Positions 8,679-37,220 of a stretch of DNA of 64,000 bases are shown piece after piece. Positions within the stretch are counted from its first letter, which is position 1, and every line of letters starts with the position of its first letter. Below the pieces are notes generated by a model. The model saw only the letters and a list, made by a program, of their open reading frames with translations. It was not told where the DNA came from and did not search any database. Made by a program: the position numbers and the translations under genes. The DNA comes from Candidatus Polarisedimenticola svalbardensis (GTDB taxonomy: Bacteria; Acidobacteriota; Polarisedimenticolia; Polarisedimenticolales; Polarisedimenticolaceae), in contig JACXWD010000007.1 in assembly GCA_014764515.1 (NCBI GenBank), positions 1-64,000 on the forward strand, written 5' to 3'.

Positions 8679-9518
8679 ATGAGCAATGAGAGGTCGGACC
8701 GGTCGGTCCCGACTGAGGCGGTGGGCAAAGTCCTTGAGGCGGCCACCGCCGAACGGAAGGCTCTCCGGGTTCTGCTCCGGGAGCACCGGGACCTGCAGGT
8801 ACAGAACTTGGAGCTGGTTCAGCAACTGGTGGAGAAGCCGGATCCGGCTCAAGAAGGCGCCTCCAAAACGGACGCCATCCGGTTCGGCCTGATGGAAGCG
8901 GAGAACTCCGAGCTGACCACCAACTACCAGAAGCTGCTGCAGGAAAACAACAACCTGTTCAAACTGTACATCGCCTCTCACCGGCTGCACTCCACCCTGG
9001 CCCTGGGCGAGGTTCTGGACGTGATCTCGGAGATTATCCTGAACCTGGTGGGAGCCGACGCCTACTCGATCCAGTTCTTCGATGAGCCGTCGGGGCAACT
9101 GCTCCCGGTGGTGGTCCGCGGCATCGAGAGGGACGCCGTCAAGCCGGTCAAAATCGGCGAAGGGATTATCGGCAGCGCCGTTACATCACACCAGAGTTAC
9201 TCGCTGAACGCGGTTTCCCCAGGTGATCCTCCGGACGCCGACCACCCGCTGGCGGTCATCCCGCTGCGAACCAATCAGTCCCTGGTCGGTGCCGTAGCGT
9301 TGTACCGGCTGCTGTCTCACAAACCGGAACTCCGGGATGTGGATTTCCAGCTTTTCGACTATATGGCCACCCACGCCGCCATGGCCCTGAACTCCGCCCA
9401 GTTGTACACCGCCTCGGAACGCAAGGTCTCAAAGATGAAGGAGTTCCTGAACCTGATGCAGCCTCCCGCAGCGAAGCCCGGAACCGGCGAGAACCCGACC
9501 GGCGGGAGCGCGCGCTGA
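8679..9518 (+). CDS. GAF-domain protein opening the chemosensory cluster
   Basis: 279 aa, ATG start after a GAGGAG-type ribosome site. Residues about 15-95 are predicted coiled coil (many Leu/Glu heptads, such as LLREHRDLQVQNLELVQQL). Residues about 100-255 form a GAF domain (ALGEVLDVISEIILNLVGAD, then PLAVIPLRTNQSLVGAVALY and AALN). There is no kinase, cyclase or output domain, so it is probably a cytoplasmic ligand- or redox-sensing adaptor feeding the CheA pathway. It is first in the operon: its stop is one base before the ATG of the DUF4388 gene. Confidence 0.82.
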   Translation: MSNERSDRSVPTEAVGKVLEAATAERKALRVLLREHRDLQVQNLELVQQLVEKPDPAQEGASKTDAIRFGLMEAENSELTTNYQKLLQENNNLFKLYIASHRLHSTLALGEVLDVISEIILNLVGADAYSIQFFDEPSGQLLPVVVRGIERDAVKPVKIGEGIIGSAVTSHQSYSLNAVSPGDPPDADHPLAVIPLRTNQSLVGAVALYRLLSHKPELRDVDFQLFDYMATHAAMALNSAQLYTASERKVSKMKEFLNLMQPPAAKPGTGENPTGGSAR

Positions 9519-9519
9519 T

Positions 9520-10002
9520 ATGGCATGTGAACTCTCAGGACGGATTCAGGATATCCCGGTGCGGAAACTCCTGAAGTGGATCTGGCACTCCACCCGTACC
9601 GGCCTGCTTCTGCTTAAAGAGGGCCTCCTGGACGGGGCGGTTGAATTTCTGGACGGTGAAATCGTCTCTGCAAGGAGCGGCGCCGGATTCCCCGATATCG
9701 GAACGATCCTTCTTGAGAACAAGGTCATCAACATCGAACAACTGCTGCAGGCCGCAGACCGGCAGCGCCGGGCCGAACGCCCCGCCCCGTTGGGGAGAAC
9801 CCTAATGGAGATGGGGTGTGCCGAGGAGACCGACATCCAGAAAGCGATGCGGCTGCAGGTGGATCAGGTCATCGAGTCCCTTCTCGCCCTCAACAAGGGC
9901 TGTTTCGAGTTTCACGCCGCCCGGACCAGCAGGGACGACATCACACAGAACGTGTCGGAAGTTATCAGGGAAGCCGATGTGCGGAGGATGTTCACCTCAT
10001 GA
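9520..10002 (+). CDS. DUF4388 (PATAN-like) protein
   Basis: 160 aa. The N-terminus (LSGRIQDIPVRKLLKWIWHS, then TGLLLLKEG and VEFLDGEIVSARSG) is a typical DUF4388/PATAN domain, a small module common beside response regulators and chemosensory proteins in delta-proteobacteria-like genomes and proposed to mediate protein contacts. The second half (residues 65-155) is helical and resembles the C-terminal extension of this family. ATG start one base after the GAF stop; its TGA overlaps the ATG of cheY (ATGA). The position implies an adaptor role with CheY/CheA. Confidence 0.82.
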   Translation: MACELSGRIQDIPVRKLLKWIWHSTRTGLLLLKEGLLDGAVEFLDGEIVSARSGAGFPDIGTILLENKVINIEQLLQAADRQRRAERPAPLGRTLMEMGCAEETDIQKAMRLQVDQVIESLLALNKGCFEFHAARTSRDDITQNVSEVIREADVRRMFTS

Positions 10003-10415
10003 GCAATACGGAGAGAAATATGTCGCAGAAAATTCTGGTGGTAGACGACTCCTCGTTCATGCACAGCATGTACGACATGGTCCTGCGCAGTTGCAGCAAC
10101 TGCGAAATCGTTCATGCCATGAACGGGCAGGAAGCACTGGACGCACTGGGCCAGTGCAGCGAGTTCAACCTGATCATCCTGGACATCAACATGCCCGAGA
10201 TGAGCGGGCTTGAGTTCATGGAGAAGTACAAGTCCAGCGGCCTGCCGGCCTCGGTGCCGATCATCATCGCCAGCACCGAGGGCACGGAGAACGACACCCA
10301 GCGCGGGCTGGACGCCGGCGCCATGGCGTACCTCAAGAAACCGTTCCAGCCCAGCGACCTGCAGGAACTGGTAAACGGTGTATTGGGAAGCGGCAGGGAC
10401 CAGAAAGCCGTCTGA
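9999..10415 (+). CDS. cheY: CheY-like single-domain response regulator
   Basis: 138 aa from the ATG at 9999, coupled to the previous gene by ATGA; the ATG at 10020 (MSQKILVVDD) is an alternative giving 131 aa. Receiver fold only: acidic pair D16/D17, phospho-acceptor D62 (LIILDINMPEMSG), T93 (ASTEG) and K114 (YLKKPF). It is expected to take phosphate from the adjacent CheA and act as the diffusible output. Two bases separate it from cheA. Confidence 0.93.
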   Translation: MSNTERNMSQKILVVDDSSFMHSMYDMVLRSCSNCEIVHAMNGQEALDALGQCSEFNLIILDINMPEMSGLEFMEKYKSSGLPASVPIIIASTEGTENDTQRGLDAGAMAYLKKPFQPSDLQELVNGVLGSGRDQKAV

Positions 10416-10417
10416 CC

Positions 10418-12073
10418 ATGAACGACGACTTCGTCAAGGCGCTGATCCACGACTTCGTGGAAGAGGCCAGACCGATGACCGAAAGGCTCGGGGATGCGTT
10501 CCTGCGCATGGAGCGTTGCTGGTCGGAAGGCGCCGGAACCGGAGACATCCTTCCCCAGGTCAAGTCGGACCTGCACACTCTCAAGGGCAACTCGGGGCTG
10601 ATGGGGCTGACCGCGATTCAGTCCCTGACCCATGCCATGGAAGATCTGTGCGGCATCCTCACGGTGGATGAGACAGCGGCCGGTCCCGAAGTCGCCGACA
10701 TCCTCCTTGAAGGTGGCGACCTCCTGGGTGAGATGGTCGACCTGTCGGAGCAGGGAGAGCTGAAGGATGACCATGCCTCGGCCATCCTCAAACGCCTCGA
10801 AAGCGCAATTTCCGGACTGAAAAACGGGACCACGGTTCCCCGCCCGGCCAGGAAGGTTACCGAGACCGGGGAACGGCTCAGCGTCAAGTCCGACGATCTG
10901 GTCCGGATCGATTTCCGCAAGCTGGACAGTCTGCTGGAGATGGTTGGCGAGGCCATGGTCTCCCGATCGATGCTGGCGAATGCCCACAACCGGCTGCCGG
11001 GCGTCGGGGAGAGCGGCAGCGATCCGGATCGGGCGATGCAGCTTCTGGAACGATCGCTCCAAGGGTTGCAGGAAGGGCTGGTGCAAACCCGTTTGCTTCC
11101 GGTTTCCACCGTATTCCGACGCTTCGTGCGCCATGTCCGCGACCAGGCCCGCAAGGAGGGCAAAGCGGTCCGACTCGAAACGACCGGCGCCGACACCACC
11201 CTGGACAAAACGATCATCGACCGTCTGGCGGAACCGATCCTGCATCTGGTCCGCAACGCCGTGGCCCATGGTGTGGAGACCGGAGCCGAACGTCTCAAGG
11301 CGGGAAAATCGGAAGAGGGCACCGTGACCCTGTCGGCGGAGCAACTGTCGGACCGGGTACTTATCGCCGTCTCCGATGACGGCCGGGGCCTGGATGTGAA
11401 GAGAATCACCAGCCGTGCCGAGGCTCTGGGTTACGACACCGAAAACATGGAACGCCAGGAACTGCTGCGGCTCATCTTCGAGCCCGGCTTTTCCACCGTG
11501 GAAGGGGTGTCCACCCTGGCCGGCCGGGGTGTCGGCCTGGACGTGGTGGCCGCTTCCATCGAGGCACTGGGAGGGGCGGTCAACGTGGACAGCCAGCCGG
11601 GGCATGGCGTCACCTTCCGCCTGGACCTCCCGTTGACCCTGGCAGTGGTCAAGGCGCTGTTCGTGGACGTGGCCGACGAGCTGTACGCCATCCCCCTGAG
11701 CTACGTTCTCGAAAGCTTCCGGCTGGACCCGGCAACTACCCACACGGTGGATCACCGCACGGTTGTTTCCTGGCGAAACGAATGGATCCCCCTGGTGGAC
11801 GGCAGCAACCTGCTGGGCGCGGCAACGGACCGCAACGCGCCGTACTGCGTGGTGATCGCTTCCGGCGCAAGAAAATGCGGATTCCTCGTGCAGTCGATTC
11901 GCAGCCGCCGTGACGTCGTGGTCAAGGGACTGGACAACATCCTGGGGCAGCAGAAATTCATCTCCGGCGTCACGACACTGGGTGACGGCCGGGTGGTTTT
12001 CATCCTGGACGTGGCGGCCCTGACCAGCGCCAGGTTCGACGGCGCACATGCCGCAGAGGGAGCCGATGCTTAA
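10418..12073 (+). CDS. cheA: Chemotaxis-type histidine kinase CheA
   Basis: 551 aa. HPt domain at residues 1-110 with the phosphorylatable His53 (LHTLKGNSG), a short linker, the dimerisation helices starting near residue 165 (VRIDFRKLDSLLEMVGEAMV), the HATPase domain (LVRNAVAHGVE; DDGRGLD; GRGVGLDVV) and a C-terminal CheW-like domain (about 405-545). There is no recognisable P2 (CheY/CheB-binding) domain, which explains the short length compared with enteric CheA (about 650 aa). The kinase is predicted to be fully active. It overlaps cheW by 8 bases. Confidence 0.95.
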   Translation: MNDDFVKALIHDFVEEARPMTERLGDAFLRMERCWSEGAGTGDILPQVKSDLHTLKGNSGLMGLTAIQSLTHAMEDLCGILTVDETAAGPEVADILLEGGDLLGEMVDLSEQGELKDDHASAILKRLESAISGLKNGTTVPRPARKVTETGERLSVKSDDLVRIDFRKLDSLLEMVGEAMVSRSMLANAHNRLPGVGESGSDPDRAMQLLERSLQGLQEGLVQTRLLPVSTVFRRFVRHVRDQARKEGKAVRLETTGADTTLDKTIIDRLAEPILHLVRNAVAHGVETGAERLKAGKSEEGTVTLSAEQLSDRVLIAVSDDGRGLDVKRITSRAEALGYDTENMERQELLRLIFEPGFSTVEGVSTLAGRGVGLDVVAASIEALGGAVNVDSQPGHGVTFRLDLPLTLAVVKALFVDVADELYAIPLSYVLESFRLDPATTHTVDHRTVVSWRNEWIPLVDGSNLLGAATDRNAPYCVVIASGARKCGFLVQSIRSRRDVVVKGLDNILGQQKFISGVTTLGDGRVVFILDVAALTSARFDGAHAAEGADA

Positions 12074-12539
12074 AACGAATACGAGAACGACGGAGGGTAC
12101 GGCGGTCCAGAACGGCGATCAGCACCTGGTGGTGATGACCATCGATAACGAAGAATACGGGGTTCCCATCCATAGCGTCCGCGAGATCCTTCGGATGATG
12201 CCGGTGGGCCGGGTGCCTGGTGCGCCGGAGCATGTCCGCGGAGTCATCAACGTCAGGGGCCAGGTCATGGCGGTAGTGGAGGCCCGGACCCTCCTGGGAC
12301 TGCCGGCCCTGGACCCGACGCAGACGTCAAGAATCCTGGTGGTGGAGATCGGTGATCGTGTCACCGGCCTCCTCGTAGACTCGGTCTCCCAGGTTCTTCG
12401 CATACCTGAATCGAACATAACTTCCGGAGGCGAGGTCATGACGGCCGCCGCCGAGTACATCCGGGGGATGGCCCGCTGGGAAGATCGGATGATCATCCTG
12501 CTGGACCTGGACAAGGCGCTTGCACAGGAAGCGGCGTGA
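12066..12539 (+). CDS. cheW: Chemotaxis coupling protein CheW
   Basis: 157 aa from the ATG at 12066 (AGAGGGA just upstream), overlapping the end of cheA. A complete CheW fold: YGVPIHSVREILR (about residues 30-42), VPGAPEHVRGVINVRGQV (about 52-69), then GLLVDSVSQVL. It should bridge the MCP downstream and CheA in a signalling array. Confidence 0.94.
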   Translation: MLKTNTRTTEGTAVQNGDQHLVVMTIDNEEYGVPIHSVREILRMMPVGRVPGAPEHVRGVINVRGQVMAVVEARTLLGLPALDPTQTSRILVVEIGDRVTGLLVDSVSQVLRIPESNITSGGEVMTAAAEYIRGMARWEDRMIILLDLDKALAQEAA

Positions 12540-12561
12540 ACGGGGTGGAGGAGTCGAGAAA

Positions 12562-13005
12562 ATGAGCAGGAGCATGAAATATCTGGCCATGGCGATTCTG
12601 GCCGGCACGCTGTTTGCCGTGCCGGCGTTCGCCGGAGATTCGTTCGTCGTGGTGGTCCACAAGGATAATCCGGTGGACAGCCTGGACCGCAAGGAGATCT
12701 CCGATCTTTTCCTCAGGGTCAGCTCCCACTTCACAACCGGTGGGGAAGCGGTGCCGATCGACCTGGGCGAGAGCTCCTCGACCAGAATCGCTTTCAGCAA
12801 GGCGGTGCACAATCGCAGCATCAAGGCGGTGAAGTGGTACTGGCAGAAACGGCGCTTCGCCGTCGGCGGCAACGCACCGGGAATGGCTACCAGCGAGGCC
12901 AACCTGTTGCGATTCGTAGCGACCAACGAACGTGGAATCGGTTATGTCTCAACGAATACGGACATTGAAGCGTTCCCGGTCAAGATCATCACGATTACCG
13001 ACTGA
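12562..13005 (+). CDS. PstS-like periplasmic substrate-binding-type protein
   Basis: 147 aa from the ATG at 12562 (GGAGGAG upstream). Signal peptide MSRSMKYLAMAILAGTLF then PAFA-GD, cleavage about residue 27. The mature part (VVVVHKDNPVDSLDRKEISD, then SKAVHNRSIKAVKWYWQKRR and RFVATNERGIGYVS) resembles one half of phosphate-ABC-transporter PstS-like domains, far shorter than a transporter binding protein (about 320 aa). Similar short proteins occur beside MCPs. With the MCP directly downstream, I infer a periplasmic ligand-binding or co-receptor role; direct phosphate binding is not shown. Confidence 0.75.
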   Translation: MSRSMKYLAMAILAGTLFAVPAFAGDSFVVVVHKDNPVDSLDRKEISDLFLRVSSHFTTGGEAVPIDLGESSSTRIAFSKAVHNRSIKAVKWYWQKRRFAVGGNAPGMATSEANLLRFVATNERGIGYVSTNTDIEAFPVKIITITD

Positions 13006-13032
13006 CAGATCCAGGAAGCCTGGAGGGGCACC

Positions 13033-15000
13033 ATGAAGCTGTTGAACAATATGTCACTTTCGTTCCGGGCCAAGATCTTCCTGCTGCCCCTGATGGCGGC
13101 GGTTGCGTTTCTCATGATCGGCCTGGTATTCCACTCCCTGACCCAGCGCAGCGAGTCCCGCCTGACGGAGCTCGACCGGGGCTACATCCCGGCAGTGGAT
13201 CTGTACCGAGCCCTGGACACCAACGTCAAGGATGTCTACGAGGCACTGGAAGATGCGGCTATGAGCGAGGACGAGATGCTCCTGGAGCCTGTGGCCGGCC
13301 TGAGCGAGGATTTCCATGGAGCCCTCGGAACCGCAGCCGGGAATACGATCCTGGACCAGGATCGCCTGGCAGGTATCGCCGTGGATTATGCCAGCTACAT
13401 CGCCGCCGGCGAGAAAGCGGTGCGAAGCCTCCTGGGCAACACCGATGCGTCGGACGCCAACATGCACCTCGAGCGGATGCGGACGGCACACGCATCGGTT
13501 TCCGCGGCAATCTACGGACAGCTCAAATACTACGAATCCGAGAAGGAAACGGCCTTCGGAGCCGCCATCGACGATTTCAAATCCTCCCAATGGGTCAGCA
13601 TCCTGATCACCGGGCTGGCCATTGTGCTCCTGGGTGTCATGACGGCCTGGACATCACGAGGGATGATCCTGTCGTTCTCCCGATTCTCCAAGGCGTTCAC
13701 CCGAATGGCCGACGGCGATTTCTCAATCCGCGTCCGAACCGATCAGGCCGACGAATTCGGCCGGCTCGGACAGCAGATGAACAACATGATGGATTACCTG
13801 GAAGAGATGACCCGGACGGCGGCAGCCATAGCAAACGGGGATCTGTCGGTGCATGTCCAGCCCCGGTCGGACTCCGACAGCTTCGGCAAGGCGTTCCGGG
13901 TCATGGCGGAAACCCTGCGGACCGTCCTGGAGCGGATCCTGAATTCCTCCCGGGAACTGGCCGCCTCGGCCTCGAAAATTTCTTCTTCCAGCGAGCAGAT
14001 CATGCAGGGCGCCCGCACCCAGACAAGCTCCACCGACGAAACTTCAACCACCATGGTGGAAATGGCGACCCAGATCCAGCAGCTGGCGCGGTTCTCCGAG
14101 GACCTGTCGGCCAACGTGGACGAAACGTCCGCATCCATCGAGGAAATGAACGTCACGCTGGCACACACGGCAACCAACGCAGCTGAACTTGCAGGCTCGG
14201 TGCAGGAAACACGCAACACCATGGGTTCCATGGTGGAGAGCATGGTCGGCATCGCCGGCAGCATCCAGTCGGTGGACAAGGTCTCCAAGAAAGCGGTGGA
14301 TGATGCCCGCAGCGGGTCCACCGAACTCCAATCTTCCATCAACTCCATCGCCGATCGTGCCCTGGCCATTGAACGAATCGTAACGGTGATCGAGAGCATC
14401 GCCGATCAGACCAACCTCCTTTCGCTGAATGCAGCCATTGAGGCCGCCCGGGCCGGCGAGGCCGGCAAGGGTTTCTCCGTTGTGGCCGACGAGGTCAAAC
14501 GACTGGCGGAACGCTCGGCGGTGGCGACCCAGGAGATTTCCGGAATCATGAAGAGCGTTCAGCAGGAGACCGCGGCGGCGATCCGTTTGAACCAGAGTGT
14601 CCTGCAGGCGATCGTCGATTCCATCGAAGGAACATCCGGACTGATCGGGGAAGCCAGCAAAACGGCCGAAGGACAGGCGGACCATGCCAAGGGTGTCCTC
14701 ATCGCGACCCGTCGCGTGGCCGAACTGGCCACCCAGATCGAAACTTCGGCCCGGGAGAACGCTTCCGGCGCCAGCGAGATCACCAAGGCGGCCCAGACCA
14801 TGAACAACTTCGTGAGAGAAATTGCGGCAAGCACGTCGGAGCAGACCCGGGGCGGCGAGATGATCGTCCAGGCCATCGACTCCATTGCCCAGATCTCAAG
14901 GGAAAACACGCGAGCCGTGGAGCAGCTCACCGGCACGGCAAAAATACTGGCCGATGAATCGGTCGATCTGCAGCAGCAGGTCGAAACCTTCAAGATCTGA
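13033..15000 (+). CDS. Methyl-accepting chemotaxis protein
   Basis: 655 aa. TM1 at about 14-36, a helical periplasmic domain of about 150 aa resembling four-helix-bundle sensors ([20 protein letters not shown]), TM2 at about 190-210, a HAMP domain (about 215-265), a second HAMP-like unit ([20 protein letters not shown], about 270-300), then the methyl-accepting coiled coil with the tip around [20 protein letters not shown] (about 455-475). Unlike enteric Tsr it has no C-terminal CheR-tethering pentapeptide; it ends ...QVETFKI. The only receptor in the cluster, so presumably the main input for this CheA. Confidence 0.93.
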
Positions 15001-15008
15001 CCGCCGAC

Positions 15009-16955
15009 ATGAACCAGATCCAATCGGTTGCCAACAGCATCCGAAACCGACTGTGCCTCCTGGAAGACCAGGTCCGTACCGGGGACACGCGGGAGGCTAT
15101 CCTCAAAGGCCTTGAGGACGATATCCGCTGCGTAAGGGAAAGGGCGGTGGCCCTGGCGGTCCGCCATCTGGAACCGGAGACCCTGGGAGAGCTGCTGGCC
15201 GACGAGGCCAACGCCACGTTGCGAAGCTCGGCTCTATCCGCCCTGGAGCGCCAGGGACCGTACGCCCTCAACTTCCTGGAGAAGGTGACCCGGGGCAGCG
15301 ACGCCGACCTTGCCATGTTCGCCGTCCAGGCCCTGGCCCGCATCGGAGCCCCCAGAACGATTCCCCTGTTGCTGGCCCTCCTGGATCATTCGGAGGAAAA
15401 CGTCGGCCTTGCGGCAATCGAGGCCCTGGGAGAGATGCAAGCCGATGATGCGGTTCCCCGGCTCCTTGAACATCTCGACGGAAGCGTCTGGAAGCAGTTC
15501 GCCATCATTCGAGCTCTGGGCCTCATCGGAGACACCCGGGCGCTGGACGCCCTGCTGACCCTTCGCTCCCATCCGATGCTGATGGAACCGGTGGTGGAAG
15601 CCCTCGGAAACATCGGTTCGGATCGAGCGCTGCCACCCCTGGCGGAACTCCTGGTTGACCGGAACGCGTCAATGATCCGAGGCAAGATCCTGGTATCGAT
15701 CCACCAGATTCTGAAAAGGAACCTGGCGGTACGGCTGTCCCTGCCTGCCGGGGCCGACACGGCGCCGCTCTACGACTGGCTGAAAGAAACCACAGGGTCC
15801 GGAGATAGCGAACTGGCCGAAGCTGCCATATCCGCCATCCTTTCTTTACGGTTGACCGATCTGTATCCGGACATCCTGAAGGTGGCGCACAGCCACGGGG
15901 ACCAGCCGTGGATCGCCGACTGCCTCCGGCGCCACAAAACGGAGATCTCGGCGGCGCTGCCGGAGATCCTTCGAACATCCGACGTCCAGGTCCGTTGCAC
16001 CGTTCTCGAAAGCGGGGCATTTCGCGGAGAGACACTCCCGGCGGTCACGGACCTTCTCACACACCCGGACAGTCGCATCGCCAAGGCGGCGTGTGTGGCC
16101 CTGGGCAAAGCCCATGCCACAACGACCGTTCCTCGGCTCATGGACCTCCTCAGGAGCGGCTCTTCAGAGATGAAGGCGGCGGCGGCGGAAGCACTCTCCA
16201 GAATGCCACCGTCCTCTCTCGGGGATCTCAGGACCGACCTGGATTCGTCCTGCGAAACCGCCCACATCACCGCCGCCCTCGATGTGGTCGGCCGCGCCCG
16301 GTGCGAGTCCCTGGCCCGCCCGGTGCAACGCCTTCTCCGCGACCGGCGGGCCCCTGTCCGGGAAGCCGCCATGCGGGCCATCGGGTTGATGGACTCCGCC
16401 CTAGCAGAGGAACTTCTGGGTCTTTATGACGACCCGGATCCCAACGTCGCCATGGCCGCCATCGAGGCTTCAGTGGACCTGCAGGATGGGACGGCGGTCC
16501 CGCCTCTTATCGCCATCACCCGCAAGCCGGGGCCGGTTCGCTTCCGGGCCATCCGGGCACTGGGCCGACTGGGCGACAAGGCTGCCGCACAGCCGCTGCG
16601 TGAATGCTACAACTCGGCGGCCACTCATGAGAAGCTCGAGATCGTCGAGGCGCTGGTTCGAATTCATCCGAGTTGGATCATCCCGTACCTGAAGCAGGTG
16701 TATTACAAGGCCGAACTGGATCTGCGGCGGGTTGCGGCCCGGGGGATGGTACGAACTCCCGATGCACTTTCGCTGGAAGACCTGGCAGGTATGGCGTCGG
16801 ACCAGGACTGGAGCATTCGGGGAATCGCCGCAGGCGAATTAGCCGGCCCGTACGGCGACCGGGGACAGGAACTGCTCATGAAGCTGGTCCGGGATGACGA
16901 ACCGATCGTTGCCGGTATCGCCCGCCGATCCATGGGGAGTTGCAATGAGAATTGA
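15009..16955 (+). CDS. HEAT-repeat protein in chemosensory cluster
   Basis: 648 aa made almost wholly of HEAT/PBS-lyase-like repeats of about 31 aa (units such as LFAVQALARIGAPRTIPLLL, GLAAIEALGEMQADDAVPRL and VEALGNIGSDRALPPLAELL). No signal peptide or membrane segment. Such alpha-solenoids are protein-interaction scaffolds and occur in some alternative chemosensory clusters. It lies between the MCP (8-nt gap) and cheR (11-nt overlap), so it is translated as part of the operon. The partner is unknown. Confidence 0.85.
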   Translation: MNQIQSVANSIRNRLCLLEDQVRTGDTREAILKGLEDDIRCVRERAVALAVRHLEPETLGELLADEANATLRSSALSALERQGPYALNFLEKVTRGSDADLAMFAVQALARIGAPRTIPLLLALLDHSEENVGLAAIEALGEMQADDAVPRLLEHLDGSVWKQFAIIRALGLIGDTRALDALLTLRSHPMLMEPVVEALGNIGSDRALPPLAELLVDRNASMIRGKILVSIHQILKRNLAVRLSLPAGADTAPLYDWLKETTGSGDSELAEAAISAILSLRLTDLYPDILKVAHSHGDQPWIADCLRRHKTEISAALPEILRTSDVQVRCTVLESGAFRGETLPAVTDLLTHPDSRIAKAACVALGKAHATTTVPRLMDLLRSGSSEMKAAAAEALSRMPPSSLGDLRTDLDSSCETAHITAALDVVGRARCESLARPVQRLLRDRRAPVREAAMRAIGLMDSALAEELLGLYDDPDPNVAMAAIEASVDLQDGTAVPPLIAITRKPGPVRFRAIRALGRLGDKAAAQPLRECYNSAATHEKLEIVEALVRIHPSWIIPYLKQVYYKAELDLRRVAARGMVRTPDALSLEDLAGMASDQDWSIRGIAAGELAGPYGDRGQELLMKLVRDDEPIVAGIARRSMGSCNEN

Positions 16956-17817
16956 AACCGCCGGCGAGCTGCTTTGCCCCGATGAGATCGAATTCAAGCT
17001 GGTGAGCGACCTGATCAAGTCACGGTTCGGGCTGGTGTTTGACCTCGGCCGCACCGGCATCCTGAAGAACCAGCTCGCCTCCAGGATCAACGAGCTGAGC
17101 CTGATAACGTACACCGATTACTACCACTACCTGTCCTACCACCCGGACCGGACCCCGGAACTGGAAGAACTGGCCCGTCAGATAACCAATGGCGAATCGT
17201 ACTTTTTCCGCGAGCACCACCACTTCGAAATACTCCGGGATCATATCCTGCCCCGGCACCATGCCCGGTCTCCGCAAGATCCCCTGCGGGTCCTGTCGGC
17301 AGGCTGCTCCGCCGGACAGGAGGCCTACTCCATCGCCATCACCCTGCAGGAGGCTGCCACCGGCACCGGGGCCGGCGGCTGGAAGGTCGATGCGTGTGAC
17401 ATCCACCCGGGCCGCCTGGACCAGGCTCGCTCGGCCCGCTACGGGGAAGCATCCCTGCGGACCTGCCGGAATGCCGACCGCAGGATTTATTTCGAAGAGG
17501 ACGGCAATCGCTACCGTGTGCGATCCGAGTACCGCAACAAGGTCCGATTCTTCCCGGCCAACCTGACCGATCCGGCGGTTGCGGACTGGGGCCGGTATAA
17601 TGTCATCTTCTGCCGGAACGTTCTGATCTATTTCAGCGACGACGCCTTCCACGAAGCTATTGACCAGTTCACCCGATGCCTGCTGCCCGGTGGGTACCTG
17701 TTCCTCGGACATTCCGAGTCCCTGATCAATCGCCGGGACGATTTTGAGCCGGTCTCCCTGGGAGGCCATATCGTCTACCGCAAGAAGGCGGCGGGACCAT
17801 CGTCCGCGTATTCATAG
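16945..17817 (+). CDS. cheR: Chemotaxis protein methyltransferase CheR
   Basis: 290 aa from the ATG at 16945 inside the end of the HEAT gene (GGGGAG upstream; the longer in-frame ORF start is unlikely). N-terminal CheR domain, the conserved NGESYFFREHHHFEIL stretch (about residues 80-95), SAM-binding LSAGCSAGQEAYSIA (about 115-129) and YNVIFCRNVLIYF (about 218-230). Methylates glutamates of the MCP using S-adenosylmethionine. Its 3' end overlaps the predicted start of cheB by about 19 bases. Confidence 0.94.
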   Translation: MRIETAGELLCPDEIEFKLVSDLIKSRFGLVFDLGRTGILKNQLASRINELSLITYTDYYHYLSYHPDRTPELEELARQITNGESYFFREHHHFEILRDHILPRHHARSPQDPLRVLSAGCSAGQEAYSIAITLQEAATGTGAGGWKVDACDIHPGRLDQARSARYGEASLRTCRNADRRIYFEEDGNRYRVRSEYRNKVRFFPANLTDPAVADWGRYNVIFCRNVLIYFSDDAFHEAIDQFTRCLLPGGYLFLGHSESLINRRDDFEPVSLGGHIVYRKKAAGPSSAYS

Positions 17818-18815
17818 TCGATGACGCACCGTTCATCCGGAAGGCGCTCAACCGGGTGCTGTCGTCGGATCCGGAAGTCACGGTTGTCGGCCAGGCGGCC
17901 AGGGGTGAGGAAGCTCTGGAGATGATACCGCTCTGCCGCCCGGACCTGGTCACCCTGGACATCGACCTACCCGGTATCGACGGCATCTCCACCTTGATCG
18001 AACTGCGCCGGATGCTGCCCCAACTGCCTGTAATCATGATGTCCGCCCTGGCCAGGGAGGGAGCCGAAATCACCCTGAACGCCCTGTCCGCCGGGGCGGT
18101 GGATTTCATCGACAAGACGCAGCTGAACATGATGGATTTCCACCAGCTTTCCGCCCAGCTGCTGGAGAAGGTCAGGATCTGGGGCAACGGCGGCGGCGTC
18201 AGGCCCAGAAACGGCAACAACGGCAGCGGGATGGCGACGACGGAACTCGATGTGGACTGGAGCCGCTATGATCTCTGTGTCATCGGCGCATCCACTGGGG
18301 GCCCCGCCGCCCTTGAAATGATCCTGACTGCCGCCCACGCCGATTTCCCGGCGCCGATTGTCATCGTCCAGCACATGCCGGCCGGGTTCACCCGGCCGTT
18401 CGCCGAACGACTGGACGGCATGAGCGCACTCACCGTCCGGGAAGCGACCCACGGTGCGGAACTGGTTCCCGGCCAGGTCCTGATCGCCCGGTCCGGGCAG
18501 CATCTCAAGGTCGACAAGGACAGGACCGTGCGGCTGTCCCGGCAGCCGGCGGACACATCCCACCGGCCGAGCATCGACGTCACTATGTATTCGGCGGCCT
18601 GTTCCCTCCCGGGAAGACGGCTGGCCGGCATCCTGCTGACCGGCATGGGTGACGACGGCGCCGAAGGCATGTACGCCATCCATCGCAACGGTGGCCTGAC
18701 GTTGGCCGAACACGAAGACACCTGTATCGTTCCGGGCATGCCGATCATGGCCTGCAAGCGCGGCGGCGTGGAGCATTCCCTGCCGCTCCCCGCCATCGCC
18801 TACCTGTTCTCCTGA
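17799..18815 (+). CDS. cheB: Protein-glutamate methylesterase CheB, predicted non-canonical start codon
   Basis: The receiver domain needs the sequence VRVFIVDDAPFIRKALNRVL, but no ATG, GTG or TTG occurs in this frame between the upstream stop (17745) and GTG at 17856, which lies after the acidic pair. I place the start at ATC 17799, preceded by AAGAAGG about 9 nt upstream inside cheR, giving 338 aa. With that numbering: D8/D9, phospho-acceptor D54 (LVTLDIDLPG), then the methylesterase domain with S165 (IGASTGG), H192 (VQHMP) and D285/D286 (GMGDDGAEGM). It removes methyl groups from the MCP. A CheR-CheB frameshift fusion or a sequencing error is the alternative. Confidence 0.85.
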   Translation: MVRVFIVDDAPFIRKALNRVLSSDPEVTVVGQAARGEEALEMIPLCRPDLVTLDIDLPGIDGISTLIELRRMLPQLPVIMMSALAREGAEITLNALSAGAVDFIDKTQLNMMDFHQLSAQLLEKVRIWGNGGGVRPRNGNNGSGMATTELDVDWSRYDLCVIGASTGGPAALEMILTAAHADFPAPIVIVQHMPAGFTRPFAERLDGMSALTVREATHGAELVPGQVLIARSGQHLKVDKDRTVRLSRQPADTSHRPSIDVTMYSAACSLPGRRLAGILLTGMGDDGAEGMYAIHRNGGLTLAEHEDTCIVPGMPIMACKRGGVEHSLPLPAIAYLFS

Positions 18816-29659: not shown

Positions 29660-29672
29660 TGAACATTATTCA
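29660..29672. promoter_or_regulatory. Putative second FadR-type operator, fadN side
   Basis: TGAACATTATTCA keeps the TGAA/TTCA arms of the palindrome at 29505-29521 and matches its 13-bp core at 10 positions. It lies between the predicted fadN promoter and the fadN start codon, where a bound repressor would block transcription. Confidence 0.5.
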
Positions 29673-29714
29673 TTTCCGGCGCCGTCCCGGCACCGGCACG
29701 GAAGAGGAATGGCC

Positions 29715-32075
29715 ATGGCGCGAAAGATCGAGAAGGTTGCAGTGCTCGGAAGCGGCGTAATGGGCAGCGCCATCGCCGCCCACCTGGCCAACGCGGGGAT
29801 CCCTTCCGTCGTCCTGGATATCGTCCCCAAGGACCCTGAGGCGGACCGCAACCAGATTGTCGACGGTGCAATCCGGGCCGCCCTGAAGGCGAAGCCGGCG
29901 CCGTTCTTCCACAAGCGGTTGGCCGGCATGATCACAACCGGCAACTTCGATGATGACTGGGAACTGGTCCGTGATGCGGACTGGATCATCGAAGTGGTCA
30001 AGGAAGATCTCGCGATCAAGAAGATGGTCCTGGCCAGGGCGGCGGAATTCCGCAAGGCCGGATCGGTGATCAGCTCCAACACTTCCGGGCTCTCCGCCGC
30101 AGCGATGTGCGATGGCCTGGACGATGATTTCCGAAAACATTTCCTGGTGACCCACTTCTTCAACCCGCCCCGGTACCTCCACCTGCTGGAAATCATCCCC
30201 GGCCCGGACTCCGATCCGGCGGTCCTTGACGAGATCGCCGAGTTCGTCGATCTGCGCCTGGGCAAAGGGGTAGTTCACGGACGGGATACGCCGAACTTCG
30301 TCGCCAACCGGGTCGGTGTATTCGGCATGCTGGACGCGATCAAGGCGATGGAAGAGCTGGGGCTGACGGTTGAGGATGTGGATGCTCTCACCGGCCCCCT
30401 GGTCGGCCACCCCAAGAGCGCCAGTTTCCGCACCGCCGACCTGGTCGGCCTGGACACCTTCGTCGCCGTGGCCGGCAATGTCTACAACGGCTGTCCCGAC
30501 GATGAGAATCGTCTTTCGTTCGAGACGCCGGAAGTCCTTGAAAAGATGCTGGCGAAAGGACTCCTGGGCGGCAAGTCCGGTGGAGGGTTCTACCGCAAGA
30601 AAAAGACCGCCGAAGGTAAGCAGATCCTCACTCTGGATCTCGCAACCATGGAATACCGGGAGCGGATCAAGCCGAAGTTCCCGGAGGTGGACGCGATCCG
30701 GGAAGCGCCGCTGTCCGAACGGCTCAAGGGTCTGGCATTCGGGAAAGGCAAGGCTGCCGAGTTCACCTGGCGGACATTGAGTCGGTTGTTTTCCTACTGT
30801 GCGTTCCGGGTCGGCGAGATCTGCGATACGCCCAAGCCGATAGACGACGGGATGCGCTGGGGATTCGGCTGGAAGAAAGGGCCGTTTGAGATCTGGGATC
30901 TCCTGGGTGTCTCGAAGGTCGCCGAGCGGATGAAAGCCGACGGAGTCCGGCTGCCGGACTGGATCACTCCCCTTCTGGAAAGAGACGACCCTTCCTTCTA
31001 CACCCTGGTGAACGGCGTTCCGGCGATCTGGGATCCGGCCGCAGGCGACTACCGGGCCGAACCGCCGGACCCGGGCAAGATCTCGCTGGCGGTACTCAAG
31101 AAGAGTAGCGGCGTGGTGCAGTCCAACGCCGGCGCCAGCCTGTTGGACCTGGGTGACGGCATCGCCGGCCTGGAGTTCCATTCCAGGATGAACTCCCTGG
31201 GAGGCGACATTATCGGCATGGTCGGCAAAGCCCTGGCGATCGTGGACGAGAAGTTCGACGGCCTGGTTGTAGGCAACCAGGGGACCAACTTCTCCGTTGG
31301 CGCCAACCTGATGATGATCCTCATGGCGGCCCAGGAACAGAACTGGGAAGACCTGGACCTGATGATTCGGGCGTTCCAGCGAGCCACCATGGGCATGAAA
31401 TATGCCGGAAAACCGGTGGTGGTGGCGCCGTTCGGCATGGCCCTGGGCGGCGGGGCCGAGTTCACACTCCACGGCCAGCGCACCCGGGCTTCCGCCGAGA
31501 CCTACATCGGACTGGTGGAGCTGGGAGCCGGCGTCGTGCCGGCCGGCGGCGGTTGCAAGGAACTCTACCTCAGGAATCTGGAGCGCTGGACCGGCACTAC
31601 AGGCCTCCTGACCCCGGTGCAGCAGACCTTCGAAACCATCGGCATGGCCAAGGTGGCCACAAGCGCGGTAGAAGCCAGGGACCTGGGGTTCCTGAGGGAG
31701 AGCGACCCGATCACCATGAACCCGTACCGGTTGATCAGCGACGCCAAGGCGACGGCTCTCTCCATGGTCCGGGAAGGTTTCAGGGCCGGTGCGCCCCGGA
31801 CCGACATCCCGGTGATGGGACGGGCCGGCAAGGCCGCCATCGAAGTCGCCATCTACAACATGGAAGAAGGCCGCTTCATCAGCAGCCACGACCGCAAGAT
31901 CGCACGGAAGCTGGGACACATCCTTTGCGGCGGTGACCTGACCGGAACCCAGCGCGTCAGCGAACAGTACCTCCTGGACCTTGAGCGGGAGGCCTTCCTT
32001 TCGCTCCTGGGCGAGAGAAAAACCCTGGAGCGGATCCAGAGCCTGCTCAAAACCGGCAAGCCCCTGAGGAACTAG
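29715..32075 (+). CDS. fadN: Fatty acid beta-oxidation protein FadN: 3-hydroxyacyl-CoA dehydrogenase/enoyl-CoA hydratase
   Basis: 786 aa from the ATG at 29715 (GAAGAGGA 6 nt upstream; ATG 29709 abuts that site and is less likely). N-terminal NAD-binding domain with VLGSGVMGSAIAAHLANAG (about residues 8-26), dehydrogenase C-terminal domains, then a crotonase domain in the last third (VGNQGTNFSVGANLMMI and FGMALGGGAEF). The dehydrogenase-first order and length match Bacillus FadN (789 aa), not E. coli FadB. It catalyses hydration and NAD-dependent oxidation of acyl-CoA intermediates. First gene of fadN-fadA-fadE. Confidence 0.94.
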   Translation: MARKIEKVAVLGSGVMGSAIAAHLANAGIPSVVLDIVPKDPEADRNQIVDGAIRAALKAKPAPFFHKRLAGMITTGNFDDDWELVRDADWIIEVVKEDLAIKKMVLARAAEFRKAGSVISSNTSGLSAAAMCDGLDDDFRKHFLVTHFFNPPRYLHLLEIIPGPDSDPAVLDEIAEFVDLRLGKGVVHGRDTPNFVANRVGVFGMLDAIKAMEELGLTVEDVDALTGPLVGHPKSASFRTADLVGLDTFVAVAGNVYNGCPDDENRLSFETPEVLEKMLAKGLLGGKSGGGFYRKKKTAEGKQILTLDLATMEYRERIKPKFPEVDAIREAPLSERLKGLAFGKGKAAEFTWRTLSRLFSYCAFRVGEICDTPKPIDDGMRWGFGWKKGPFEIWDLLGVSKVAERMKADGVRLPDWITPLLERDDPSFYTLVNGVPAIWDPAAGDYRAEPPDPGKISLAVLKKSSGVVQSNAGASLLDLGDGIAGLEFHSRMNSLGGDIIGMVGKALAIVDEKFDGLVVGNQGTNFSVGANLMMILMAAQEQNWEDLDLMIRAFQRATMGMKYAGKPVVVAPFGMALGGGAEFTLHGQRTRASAETYIGLVELGAGVVPAGGGCKELYLRNLERWTGTTGLLTPVQQTFETIGMAKVATSAVEARDLGFLRESDPITMNPYRLISDAKATALSMVREGFRAGAPRTDIPVMGRAGKAAIEVAIYNMEEGRFISSHDRKIARKLGHILCGGDLTGTQRVSEQYLLDLEREAFLSLLGERKTLERIQSLLKTGKPLRN

Positions 32076-32078
32076 ACC

Positions 32079-33266
32079 ATGACCATGCAGCAAGCTTATA
32101 TCGTGGCAGCGAAACGCACCGCCGTCGGCCGTGCAAAAAAAGGGAGTCTGGCGGAAACCCGCCCCGACGACATGGCGGTGGCGGTGGTGAACGATCTGCT
32201 GGCGTCCGGCGGCATCGACCCGGGCCTGGTGGACGACGTCATCCTCGGATGCGCTTTCCCGGAAGGCGAACAGGGCATGAATTTCGCCCGCCAGGTGGTG
32301 CTGTTGTCCGGCCTGCCGGCCACCACCAGCGCCATGACCATCAACCGGTTCTGTTCCTCCGGCCTGGAGGCGATCCATCTTGCGGCATTGAAGGTAGGGT
32401 CGGGAACCGCCGGCTGCGTCATCGCCGGCGGCGCCGAGACCATGACCATGATCCCGATGGGAGGCAACGGGTTCGCTCCGAATCCGGCCCTGACGGAAGA
32501 GCGGGTCGGAGCCTACCTGGGCATGGGGCTGACCGCCGAACGGGTGGCCCAGGAAGACGGCATCTCCCGGGAAGACCAGGACGCCTTCGCCCTGGACAGC
32601 AACCTCAAGGCTGTTGCCGCCATCGAAGGAGGCCGGTTCGAAGAACAGATCAGCGCCCTGACGATCCGCAAGACGGTTCCGTCGGGCAAGGGCTGGAAAA
32701 CGGTGACGACGGAAACCGAGTTCAAGGTGGATGAAGGCCCCCGGGCCGACACCAGCCTGGCGGCCCTGGCCAAATTGAAACCGGCCTTCCTCGCCGGCGG
32801 CACGGTGACCGCCGGAAACTCCAGCCAGATGAGTGACGGCGCCGCCGCCGTCATGGTCGCCTCGGAATCGTTCGTCAAGGAACATGGCCTCAAGCCGCTG
32901 GCCCGGTTCGCAGGCTACGCCACCGCCGGCCTGGATCCTGAAGTGATGGGACTGGGGCCGGTGTACGCCGTGCCGAAGCTGTTGAAGGCGACCGGCGTGG
33001 CCCTGGCGGATATCGACGTCATCGAACTGAACGAGGCGTTCGCAGCCCAGGGCTTGGCCGTGATGAAGCGCCTGGAACTCGACCCGTCCCGGGTCAACGT
33101 CAACGGTGGCGCCATCGCCCTTGGCCACCCGCTGGGTTGCACCGGGGCCAAGTTGACCACCCAGGCGATCCACGAACTGGCGCGGATCAAAGGCCGTTAC
33201 GCAATGGTAACCATGTGCGTCGGTGGCGGCATGGGCGCCGCTGGACTCCTGGAGCTGGCCGACTAG
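32079..33266 (+). CDS. fadA: Acetyl-CoA acyltransferase (3-ketoacyl-CoA thiolase) FadA
   Basis: 395 aa; ATG at 32079 with GAGGA 8 nt upstream, three bases after the fadN stop. Thiolase active site complete: nucleophile Cys92 ([12 protein letters not shown]), catalytic His in [15 protein letters not shown] (about residue 350) and the second Cys in [12 protein letters not shown] (about 381). Cleaves 3-ketoacyl-CoA with CoA to acetyl-CoA and a shortened acyl-CoA. Length matches Bacillus FadA (391 aa). Confidence 0.96.
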
Positions 33267-33286
33267 ATTTATTAACAGGAAACAAG

Positions 33287-33302
33287 CCGGCCCAAAGGCC
33301 GG
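33287..33302 (+). other. Intercistronic hairpin between fadA and fadE
   Basis: CCGGCC-CAAA-GGCCGG, a perfect 6-bp GC stem with a 4-nt loop in the 51-nt gap between fadA and fadE. No U-tract follows, so it is more likely an mRNA stability or processing element than a terminator. Confidence 0.45.
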
Positions 33303-33317
33303 AAAGCGAGGCAGGAC

Positions 33318-35126
33318 ATGGCGACGGAAGAAAAGGAAATGAAAGTGACCCGGGGCTGCAACTTCCTGGTGGACGAGGCATCCCTTGACGACGTCTTCAT
33401 CCCCGAAGAGTTCGATGAAGAGCAGCAGATGGTCGGTCAGCTCGCCAGGGACTTTTACGACGGCAGCGTCGCCCCGGTCAATGACGAAATCGAAGCGTTG
33501 GCCGATGGGGTCACGGTGAATCTCCTAAAAGAGGCCGGCGAGCTGGGCCTCTTGAGCGTGGACCTGCCGGAGCGCTTCGGCGGTTTCGCCCAGACCAAGG
33601 CTGTGAGCATGCTTGTGGCGGAAAGCCTGTGCAAGAACGCCTCGTTCAACACAGCGTTCAGCTGCCATACCGGGATCGGGTCGTTGCCGATCGTTTATTT
33701 CGGCACCGAGGAGCAAAAGCAGAAATTCCTCCCGGGCCTGGCCACCGGCGAGATCATCGGCGCCTACGCCCTGACCGAGGCCGGCAGCGGCAGCGACGCC
33801 CTGGCCGCCCGGACCACGGCGGTACTCAACGACGAAGGCACTGAATACGTCCTCAACGGCGAGAAGCTGTTCATTACCAACGGCAACTTCGCCGACCTGT
33901 TCATCGTGTTCGCCAAGGTGGACGGAGAACAGTTCACTGCGTTCATCATCGAGAAGAACAACGAAGGCCTGTCCCTGGGCGCCGAAGAGAAGAAGATGGG
34001 GATCAAGGGCTCCTCAACGACCTCGGTGATCCTGCAGGACGCGAAAGTTCCGGTCGAGAACGTCCTGGGCGAGATCGGCAATGGCGCCAGGATCGCCTTC
34101 AACATCCTGAACGTCGGCCGGTTCAAGCTGGCCGCCGCTGTTACCGGCGGTGGGATCGCCGCCATGAAGGAAACGGTGGAGTACGCCAAGGGCAGGCAGC
34201 AGTTCGGCCGGCCTATCGCAGAATTCGGGATGGTGCAGCATAAAATCGCCGAATCCCTCAGTCGTCTTTATGCGGCCCGATCCGCGATCTACCGCACCGC
34301 CGGTTATATCGACCAGAACATCGCCACCATCGACGTCACCGACCCGGAACGGGACAGCAAGGTCATCGATTCCGCCATCCGGGAGTACATGGTGGAGTGT
34401 TCCATCCTGAAGGTGTTCTGTTCCGAGGCCCTGGATTACACCGTGGACGAAGTTGTCCAGATTTACGGTGGGTACGGCTATACCCAGGAGTACGGTGCAG
34501 AGCGGTACTACCGGGACAGTCGCATCAACCGGATATTTGAAGGGACCAACGAGATCAACCGGATCGTGGTCGGCGGCGAGGTCATGAAGCGGGCCGCCAA
34601 AAACTCGATCCCCCTGTTCGCCCGGGCCAAGGCTCTGCTGGACGAGTTGACCGGGTTCCCGGATCTTGGTGACGATGACGACACCTCGTTCCTGGCAAAT
34701 GAAAGGAAGCTGGTAAACCAGGCTCGGAAGATCGTGTACCTGGCAGCCGGCACCATGGGCCAGACCCTGGGCATGAAGCTGCAGGACGTCTGGGGCCATG
34801 AGGAGCTCCTGGGGCTGCTTGCCGATCTGATCATGGAAACGTACGCCATGGACTCGGCCGTGCTCCGGACGATGAAGCTCAAGGAACGGGGCGCCCCTGA
34901 CGTGGACACCTTCCATTCCGCCCTTACCCGGTTGTACTGCAACGAAGCGATGGCCAGGATGGAGATCACCGCCAGGACCCTGCTTTCGGCCATCGTGGAA
35001 GGAGACGACCTGAGCATGGCGCTGTCGGGCCTGCGGCGCACCGCCAAGTACGCACCGGCCAACACCGTCGCGCTCCGCCGGGAAATCGCCGAATACGCCG
35101 CGTCCCACGACGACTGGGGACTCTAG
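33318..35126 (+). CDS. fadE: Acyl-CoA dehydrogenase FadE-like
   Basis: 602 aa, ATG after GCGAGG. Acyl-CoA dehydrogenase fold: ALTEAGSGSDALAA (about residues 152-165), KLFITNGNFADLFIVFAKV, then the flavin domain GRQQFGRPIAEFGMVQHKI (about 293-311), VDEVVQIYGGYGYTQEYGAE with the usual catalytic-Glu region, and FEGTNEINR. The C-terminal extension of about 180 aa is typical of the long FadE/VLCAD-like group and of Bacillus FadE (594 aa). Introduces the trans-2 double bond using FAD; electrons would go to ETF, which is not encoded here. Confidence 0.94.
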   Translation: MATEEKEMKVTRGCNFLVDEASLDDVFIPEEFDEEQQMVGQLARDFYDGSVAPVNDEIEALADGVTVNLLKEAGELGLLSVDLPERFGGFAQTKAVSMLVAESLCKNASFNTAFSCHTGIGSLPIVYFGTEEQKQKFLPGLATGEIIGAYALTEAGSGSDALAARTTAVLNDEGTEYVLNGEKLFITNGNFADLFIVFAKVDGEQFTAFIIEKNNEGLSLGAEEKKMGIKGSSTTSVILQDAKVPVENVLGEIGNGARIAFNILNVGRFKLAAAVTGGGIAAMKETVEYAKGRQQFGRPIAEFGMVQHKIAESLSRLYAARSAIYRTAGYIDQNIATIDVTDPERDSKVIDSAIREYMVECSILKVFCSEALDYTVDEVVQIYGGYGYTQEYGAERYYRDSRINRIFEGTNEINRIVVGGEVMKRAAKNSIPLFARAKALLDELTGFPDLGDDDDTSFLANERKLVNQARKIVYLAAGTMGQTLGMKLQDVWGHEELLGLLADLIMETYAMDSAVLRTMKLKERGAPDVDTFHSALTRLYCNEAMARMEITARTLLSAIVEGDDLSMALSGLRRTAKYAPANTVALRREIAEYAASHDDWGL

Positions 35127-35132
35127 AGAAAC

Positions 35133-35234
35133 GGGGACATTGCACGTTATCTTTCAATAGTTATCGGACAGGCCGCTATAATCAGGCGGGAACCTGATCC
35201 AGAGAACTATTGAAAGATAATGTGCCATGTCCCC
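35133..35234. repeat. GGGGACA-family long inverted repeat, copy 2, spanning a start codon
   Basis: Two 30-nt arms (35133-35162 and 35205-35234) are inverted repeats matching at 28 of 30 positions, separated by 42 nt. The outer ends are GGGGACAT/ATGTCCCC; the inner 16 bp (TTATCTTTCAATAGTT) match perfectly. The right arm contains the ATG of the downstream permease. The loop contains TATAAT at 35177-35182. It lies 7 nt after the fadE stop and may also end that transcript. Confidence 0.9.
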
Positions 35235-36555
35235 ATTTATTGAGAGCTGGTTCCACGTTCGGGAGAGCGGCAGCAGCCTGCGAACCGAGGTTCTCGGCGG
35301 CCTGACCACCTTCCTCACCATGGTCTACATCGTGTTCGTGAACCCGGCGGTTCTTTCCGGCGCCGGCATGGACTTTGGCGCCGTCATGGTCGCCACCTGC
35401 CTGGCCGCCGGCATCGCCACCTGGACCATGGGGCTGGCGGCCAACTACCCGATCGCCATGGCGCCGGGCATGGGCGAGAACTTCTTCTTCCTCACGGTTG
35501 TAGTCGGCATGCAGGTGCCCTGGCGCATCGCCCTGGCTGCGGTGTTCGTTTCCGGCATCGTATTCGTCTTCATGAACCTTTTCCGTCTCCGGGAGATGCT
35601 GATCAACGCCGTCCCGACCTGTCTCAAGCACTCCATCGCCGCCGGCATCGGCCTGTTCATCGCCCTGATAGGGTTGAGGAACGGCGGGATCCTTCTCAAC
35701 GATGCCGGGCAGGGCCATTTCGTCATGGGTGACCTGACCCACCCTGCCACCCTCATCGCTCTGGTCGGTCTCACCCTTACGGTTGCAGCCATGGCCCGGG
35801 GCATCCAGGGAGCGGTACTGCTTGGAATCCTGTTCACAACCGCCCTGGCCTGGGGAGCCGGCCTGGTGGAGTGGCAGGGCCTGGTTTCGATGCCGCCCTC
35901 CCTGGCGCCGACCTTCCTGCAGCTGGACCTGTCGGGCCTGCTCACCCTGGAGATGCTGCCGGTGATCTTCATATTCCTGTTCATGGCGGTCTTCGACGCC
36001 GTGGGCACGCTGATCGGAATCGGCGAGCAGGGCGGATTCATGAAGGACGGCAAACTGCCACGGGCGGGGCGGGCTTTGACCGCCGACGCTACCGGCACGG
36101 TGGTCGGCTCCCTGCTGGGCACACCCACAGTCACCGCCTACATCGAGTCGGCCACAGGAGTGCAGGCCGGCGCCCGCACCGGCCTGGCCAACATGGTCAC
36201 CGGCACGCTGTTCTTCCTGGCGCTGTTCTTCTCGCCCCTGGCCAGGATGATCGGTGGCGGCATCGAGGTCGAGCCGGGTGTTTTCGTGAACCCGATGACG
36301 GCGCCGGCGCTGATCATCGTCGGCAGCCTCATGGCCCGCAGCGTTGCGAAAATCCCGTGGGAAGACATGACCGAGTCGTTCCCGGCATTCCTGGTGCTGG
36401 CCGGCATCCCGCTGTTCTGGTCCATCGCCGACGGTATCGCTTTCGGGTTCATCGCCTACCCGCTGCTGAAACTGCTTACCGGCCGGTACCGGGAGGTCTC
36501 GGCCCTGGTCTACATCGTCGGCGGCCTGCTGGCCCTGCGGTATATCTTCCTGTGA
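35227..36555 (+). CDS. NCS2-family nucleobase permease (AzgA/GhxP-like)
   Basis: 442 aa, strongly hydrophobic with about 12-14 membrane helices. The N-terminus ESGSSLRTEVLGGLTTFLTM followed by VYIVFVNPAVL is the AzgA hallmark, and MFFFGTLIG-like (FDAVGTLIGIGEQGG) and GTPTVTAYIESATGV motifs are present. These proteins import adenine, guanine or hypoxanthine with protons. The ATG start gives the family-typical N-terminal length but lies inside the right arm of an inverted repeat, with no clear Shine-Dalgarno. The stop overlaps the methyltransferase start by one base (TGATG). Confidence 0.9.
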   Translation: MSPFIESWFHVRESGSSLRTEVLGGLTTFLTMVYIVFVNPAVLSGAGMDFGAVMVATCLAAGIATWTMGLAANYPIAMAPGMGENFFFLTVVVGMQVPWRIALAAVFVSGIVFVFMNLFRLREMLINAVPTCLKHSIAAGIGLFIALIGLRNGGILLNDAGQGHFVMGDLTHPATLIALVGLTLTVAAMARGIQGAVLLGILFTTALAWGAGLVEWQGLVSMPPSLAPTFLQLDLSGLLTLEMLPVIFIFLFMAVFDAVGTLIGIGEQGGFMKDGKLPRAGRALTADATGTVVGSLLGTPTVTAYIESATGVQAGARTGLANMVTGTLFFLALFFSPLARMIGGGIEVEPGVFVNPMTAPALIIVGSLMARSVAKIPWEDMTESFPAFLVLAGIPLFWSIADGIAFGFIAYPLLKLLTGRYREVSALVYIVGGLLALRYIFL

Positions 36556-37220
36556 TGCACGACGGCGACCGCACCTATCGCTGCCCCCGGCCTGACTGCC
36601 GCCGGCTGTTCACCGACCAGGCGGCGGTGCCGGGCAGGATCATCCACTGCCCGGACTGCAACCGGGCGATGAACGCACGGCCTGCCAGCATGGACCGAAC
36701 CCTCGAAGACAGGGAACGGAACAGTACCGGCGGAGAAGGGGCCGGCATCCCCCGGTTGCCCCTTGCGGTGCTGGTGGACAATGTCCGCTCGCTCTGGAAC
36801 GTCGGGTCCATTTTCAGATCTTCCGATGCCTGCGGCGTTGGCCTGGTGGTGCTGGCAGGAATCACAGGCGCACCACCTCGGGACGCTGTTGCGAAAACCG
36901 CACTGGGAGCGGAGCAGGCTGTGAGGTGGCGTTACCGGGCCGAGGCTCTCGCCGCCCTGGAACAGATCCTGGAGGAAGGGTACACGCCGGTCGCTCTTGA
37001 AACCGGTGCCGGAGGAAGTTCCCTGCAGAACTACCGGTGGCCGGAGCGGCCCTGCCTGATCGTCGGGAATGAGATCCGGGGGATCTCCCCGGAGGTGCTG
37101 GACGCCTGCACCGGGAGCGTTTCCATTCCGATGCGGGGGGTCAAGGACAGCCTGAACGTAGCTGTTGCGTTCGGTATTGCCGTACATCACGCCGCCGGCC
37201 AACTGGCGGGCCGGGACTAG
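36555..37220 (+). CDS. TrmH/SpoU-family RNA methyltransferase with N-terminal zinc-ribbon-like motif
   Basis: 221 aa from the ATG at 36555. Residues 8-37 hold two cysteine pairs (CPRPDC and CPDC), a probable zinc ribbon for RNA binding. Then all three SPOUT motifs: NVRSLWNVGSIFRSSDACGV (about 80-99), CLIVGNEIRGISPE (about 173) and IPMRGVKDSLNVAVAFGIAV (about 195-214). 2'-O-methylates ribose in tRNA or rRNA using SAM; the target is not deducible. Translationally coupled to the permease; the last 4 bases overlap the convergent DUF4388 gene. Confidence 0.9.
   Translation: MHDGDRTYRCPRPDCRRLFTDQAAVPGRIIHCPDCNRAMNARPASMDRTLEDRERNSTGGEGAGIPRLPLAVLVDNVRSLWNVGSIFRSSDACGVGLVVLAGITGAPPRDAVAKTALGAEQAVRWRYRAEALAALEQILEEGYTPVALETGAGGSSLQNYRWPERPCLIVGNEIRGISPEVLDACTGSVSIPMRGVKDSLNVAVAFGIAVHHAAGQLAGRD

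Follow-up and report, generated by a model that had tools for sequence, protein, structure and literature searches.

The chemosensory gene run and the cheB reading frame

Where does translation of cheB begin in a bacterium whose cheB frame contains no ATG, GTG or TTG ahead of the receiver motif? The question is raised by Candidatus Polarisedimenticola svalbardensis, in a window of 64,000 nucleotides (contig JACXWD010000007.1, positions 1 to 64,000), in which cheB follows a run of chemosensory genes:

10020-17817, + strand: chemosensory run (Pfam)
from 10020, + strand: CheY-like protein (Pfam)
from 10418, + strand: CheA (Pfam)
from 12048, + strand: CheW (Pfam)
12520-13005, + strand: small PBP-like protein (Pfam match below the cut-off)
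from 13033, + strand: MCP (Pfam)
15009-16955, + strand: HEAT-repeat protein of 648 aa, between MCP and cheR (Pfam)
16945-17817, + strand: cheR (Pfam CheR, E = 1.1e-47, and CheR_N; ungapped alignment with the sister species)
17799-18815, + strand: cheB at full length from ATC 17799, 338 codons plus stop (Pfam, NCBIfam, sister-species orthologue)

A GAF-domain protein and a DUF4388 protein (8679-10002) lie directly upstream of the CheY-like gene and perhaps belong to the same array. The PBP-like protein between cheW and the MCP gene may serve the receptor as a ligand-binding partner. The annotated-type start of the HEAT-repeat gene is nearly devoid of a Shine-Dalgarno (SD) sequence (-0.5 kcal/mol), and the end of this gene (stop codon 16953-16955) overlaps the start of cheR (ATG 16945).

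After a TGA at 17745-17747, the cheB frame runs open from 17748 to the end of its stop codon at 18815. The receiver domain matches Pfam Response_reg (PF00072, E = 1.7e-23) from residue 21 of the stop-to-stop frame, the C-terminal part matches CheB_methylest (PF01339, E = 2.2e-59), and the protein scores 334.9 bits against the NCBIfam model for CheB (NF001965, cut-off 293). D8, D9, D54 and K106, which we take to be the functional residues of the receiver, are present in the alignment with the sister species. The motifs GAST, QHMP and GMGDDG, presumably those of the Ser-His-Asp methylesterase site, were recognized by eye. The original prediction that all required CheB residues stand in frame is thereby borne out, and the predicted product is, judged by these matches, a normal, full-length CheB with receiver and methylesterase.

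As that prediction also held, its start is missing from the usual repertoire: zero ATG, GTG or TTG codons occur in the cheB frame before the acidic pair D8 D9 (17820-17825), and the first canonical codon, GTG 17856, sits 12 codons past D8 (17820-17822). The open frame ahead of the pair amounts to about 24 codons. A gap of this length is by itself not rare by chance; it is notable because a canonical start was found in all 108 other full-length CheBs compared and in neither of the two species of this genus.

ATC 17799 and its Shine-Dalgarno sequence

The elements around the beginning of the gene are the following:

17746-17845, + strand: low-divergence stretch round the start (4 differences in 100 nt from the sister species)
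17782-17788, + strand: Shine-Dalgarno-like AAGAAGG (anti-SD duplex -8.3 kcal/mol)
17799-17801, + strand: proposed cheB start codon ATC, putatively read as fMet (no canonical start upstream; same codon in the sister species)
17856-17858, + strand: GTG, first canonical start, 3' of the acidic pair (anti-SD duplex -5.7 kcal/mol)

Both the AAGAAGG and the ATC, the two elements of the original prediction, lie inside cheR. The ATC is placed 7 codons ahead of the DD pair, a frequent position of the initiator methionine in other CheBs. The only other AUN codon before the pair is ATA 17814, which would leave just M-V-D-D. Started at the ATC, the predicted protein has V-R-V-F-I-V-D-D after residue 1 and a size of about 36 kDa of its own. 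Two marks of a non-canonical start are thus seen at cheB, an absence of in-frame ATG, GTG or TTG where the homologues start and a suitably spaced SD.

In the window itself, this SD is only moderate in strength: among 20-mers drawn at random from the window (2000 draws), 5.5% reach -8.3 kcal/mol. As 16S rRNA was not found in this assembly, duplexes were calculated with the standard anti-SD sequence. Four stretches near the cheB start were folded, and none had significant RNA structure; z was 0.07 and -0.39 in the window, and the sister species gave -1.05 and -1.28. A hairpin GGAC-CAUC-GUCC with the AUC in its loop, which appeared in a short window fold, is absent from the sister species and was dropped.

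Comparison with the sister species

The other species of the genus with a cheB orthologue is represented by an Acidobacteriota metagenome-assembled genome (MAG; G001). Its CheB is 77% identical over 338 residues, and its cheR is 80% identical in nucleotides. A comparison of the codon in close relatives had been suggested: G001 carries the identical ATC at the same codon, and its 26 open codons ahead of DD include no canonical start. The SD-like stretch continues there as a perfect AAGGAGG, ending 7 nt before the ATC (-12.8 kcal/mol, a value reached by 0.2% of the same random 20-mers). Since two separate assemblies of different species share the ATC, the missing canonical start characterizes the genus and does not stem from a mistake in a single assembly.

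No third species with an orthologue was encountered among 60 relatives, the order (10 genomes), the class (41) or a phylum sample (396), and a scan of public contigs returned one close match, CALZKF010000044.1 (an uncultured Acidobacteria MAG), which is not a third species. With an orthologue in two species only, the conservation rests on one comparison. The ATC moreover falls in the 19-nt overlap of the two genes (17799-17817), where cheR also constrains the bases.

Among non-overlapping windows of 100 nt in 12,978 aligned bases (81% overall identity), the low-divergence stretch has the second fewest differences, a descriptive figure, as such windows were chosen as extremes; several others of low divergence lie within the CheY and MCP genes. 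Of the cheR codons that immediately precede the overlap, 16 are amino-acid-identical and one of these differs, synonymously, against 75 of 231 across cheR. The differences between the species in 17748-17817 are too few to assign the low divergence to dual coding. Past the end of cheR (17818-17955), the differences at cheB codon positions 1, 2 and 3 number 6, 2 and 15. This predominance of third-position changes, starting before GTG 17856, is in line with a translated cheB frame.

Rarity of the missing start

Two collections of CheB loci were compared. The first comprises 59 loci: two belong to this genus, 49 are other full-length CheBs and eight (L030-L037) are matched in the methylesterase part only, so that the receiver found may belong to a neighbour. 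The second consists of 59 further full-length CheBs, examined out of 60 fetched. Full-length CheBs without a canonical start number 2 of the 110 checked in the phylum, both from this genus, and in the 108 others such a codon stands at least 6 codons before the aspartate. The commonest distance of the nearest start in the second set is 7 codons (12/59), exactly the place of ATC 17799. Within the same genome, 27 loci were examined out of 43 other receiver matches, and all 25 distinct ones have a canonical start.

A window-wide scan of codon usage for start-less genes ranked cheB only 25th of 127. Eight of the hits, searched in Pfam, gave no family, and six of these eight lie opposite long open reading frames (ORFs) of the other strand; on these grounds, together with the rank of cheB, the scan was treated as uninformative. 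Very long open frames opposite long ORFs, with coding-like codon use and no Pfam match, occur at 29670-33524 and 35185-36609 (both minus strand), among others; they are probably shadow frames of GC-rich genes.

AUC as a probable start codon of infC

The gene of initiation factor IF3, infC, is known for its unusual start codons: ATT in Escherichia coli and ATC in Streptomyces, and it autoregulates through IF3 (PMC5472188). Sought in 21 genomes, infC was found in 20 (L070-L087 and, for the present genome and G001, L088 and L089). An ATC lies six codons before the I/V/L-N motif at 12 of the 20 loci and eight codons before it at two. In the order, 9 of the 10 genomes, both species of the genus included, have the ATC at the expected place behind an SD. 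Eight of the 12 ATC-bearing loci have no canonical codon within 15 codons; in the two genomes of interest, a GTG is present 12 codons upstream of the ATC, which makes infC a strong but not airtight control. The exceptions are G004 (TTG, no ATC), G011 (ATG at 15 codons, no ATC) and G018 (ATG 16 codons before the motif). Elsewhere in the class the infC start varies, being perhaps ATA in G013 and G016 and perhaps ATG in G011 and G018.

Because infC bears ATC in these genomes, their ribosomes very probably start at AUC already. IF3, which restrains such starts, is encoded by this very gene.

Choice between the possible starts

Initiation of cheB at ATC 17799, one of the options originally put forward, is well supported, because the same codon is found in the sister species behind a better SD, because this is a common methionine position in homologous CheBs and because infC carries ATC in both genomes. 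We consider it likely that CheB synthesis begins there. The other option, a CheR-CheB fusion that would arise, besides free CheR, from a programmed -1 frameshift within cheR (17748-17817), finds little support. The cheB frame is indeed -1 to that of cheR and open over the codons before DD in both species, divergence between them is low across the entire interval, and the SD-like stretch inside cheR could stimulate slippage. However, inspection by eye of the cheR codons in 17746-17817 showed no X XXY YYZ slippery heptamer in either species, the cheR stop codon (TAG 17815-17817) is kept in both, no strong stimulatory structure is present, and the ATC with its SD is enough to explain cheB. Frameshifting is accordingly rated as highly unlikely.

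Hardly better placed, and still improbable, is a start at GTG 17856. The CheB made from it would lack beta-1 and the acidic pair, and it would be either the sole product or a short isoform accompanying the one from AUC. This GTG occurs in both species behind a modest SD-like GGAAGG (-5.7 and -6.1 kcal/mol), and a gene caller confined to ATG, GTG and TTG must pick it or a later codon, and would probably truncate CheB past its acidic pocket. Yet the receiver, from 17808 on, aligns with the Pfam domain right from position one, and its beginning is conserved: once cheR has ended, most changes fall at third codon positions. In receivers, the acidic pair is needed for Mg2+ binding; a receiver without D8 and D9 could not bind the ion. 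GTG 17856 is a probable mis-annotated start and a possible start of a short isoform. That an ATG or an indel has been masked by faulty sequencing or assembly can be given almost no credence: both genomes are drafts (180 contigs here, a MAG for G001), but the assemblies of two species agree on the ATC and on both frames.

A last reading accepts the ATC as the start and denies it a regulatory meaning: the codon would have drifted in a gene whose product is needed at low level and would be kept partly by the overlap with cheR. A canonical start would require C to G at 17801, which changes the cheR codon TCG (Ser) to TGG (Trp), and the cheR tail constrains the bases. On the other side, this tail is not constant in the two species (A/E at 17788, A/V at 17806), and another place in the frame could have gained a start, as with the 108 other full-length CheBs. 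Such drift keeps the first half of the best explanation and is compatible with everything seen; we regard it as possible, somewhat short of likely.

Proposed mechanism and known systems

Under initiation at the AUC, fMet would begin CheB at 17799, with the initiator tRNA mispaired at the third base of the codon, and this mispairing would make initiation weak. How poor a mispaired AUC can be is illustrated in vitro, where initiator tRNAs with the anticodon UAU or AAU gave no product from AUC at 1.5 uM IF3 (PMC10158994). The SD just upstream and the ribosomes finishing cheR would assist cheB initiation, and cheB is probably translationally coupled to cheR. In E. coli, coupled expression of cheR and cheB has been argued to contribute to keeping the two in balance (PMC2716512). 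The pair described here is likewise one of adjacent, counteracting enzymes argued to gain from coupling; it differs in that cheB overlaps cheR by 19 nt and lacks a canonical start.

IF3 may further discriminate against the AUC of cheB, as it would against that of infC; the amount of CheB would then be small in proportion to that of CheR, and a shortage of IF3 would raise it. The original prediction of a deliberately weak start, with less CheB for each CheR, is plausible; control by IF3 and the lowered CheB:CheR ratio are offered as a tentative proposal. More broadly, cheB could conceivably have joined infC under IF3 start-codon discrimination, the AUC setting the CheR:CheB ratio and tying receptor adaptation of this chemosensory array to the cell's free IF3 or ribosome state.

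Like infC, cheB would have an AUN start whose third base is mismatched to the initiator tRNA, behind a good SD, and the infC of the same two genomes has the ATC as well. The two differ in that infC feeds back on itself through IF3, whereas cheB belongs to signalling and has no tie to translation; its control by IF3 is a proposal. Another comparison is offered by sigR of Streptomyces, whose GTC start is repressed by IF3; it too belongs to an overlapping regulatory pair of which one gene has a non-canonical start, conserved within one genus, not seen outside it and easily mis-annotated (PMC5472188). It has a strong SD, and an SD is present at the cheB start too. The differences are that sigR uses GTC instead of ATC, that the codon is carried by the upstream gene of the pair, and that the sigR start rests on peptide, mutant and IF3 data, whereas that of cheB is predicted from sequence. 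In the literature searched, a scope that left most subscription journals outside, no case was found that links CheB or chemotaxis to IF3 or to non-canonical starts.

Characterized bacterial genes with a non-canonical start are few (PMC5472188), and one reason is that gene callers expect ATG, GTG or TTG. To this small known set (infC, sigR), cheB is very probably a new addition. The case also points to an easy search for further examples: one looks for members of a family in which the first canonical start comes after an invariant N-terminal motif and then checks a sister species. If control by IF3 is true, cheB would work like infC or sigR. A conserved AUC in an enzyme of chemotactic adaptation, together with an infC that apparently starts at AUC as well, makes this genus a concrete case where IF3 could tune a signalling pair.
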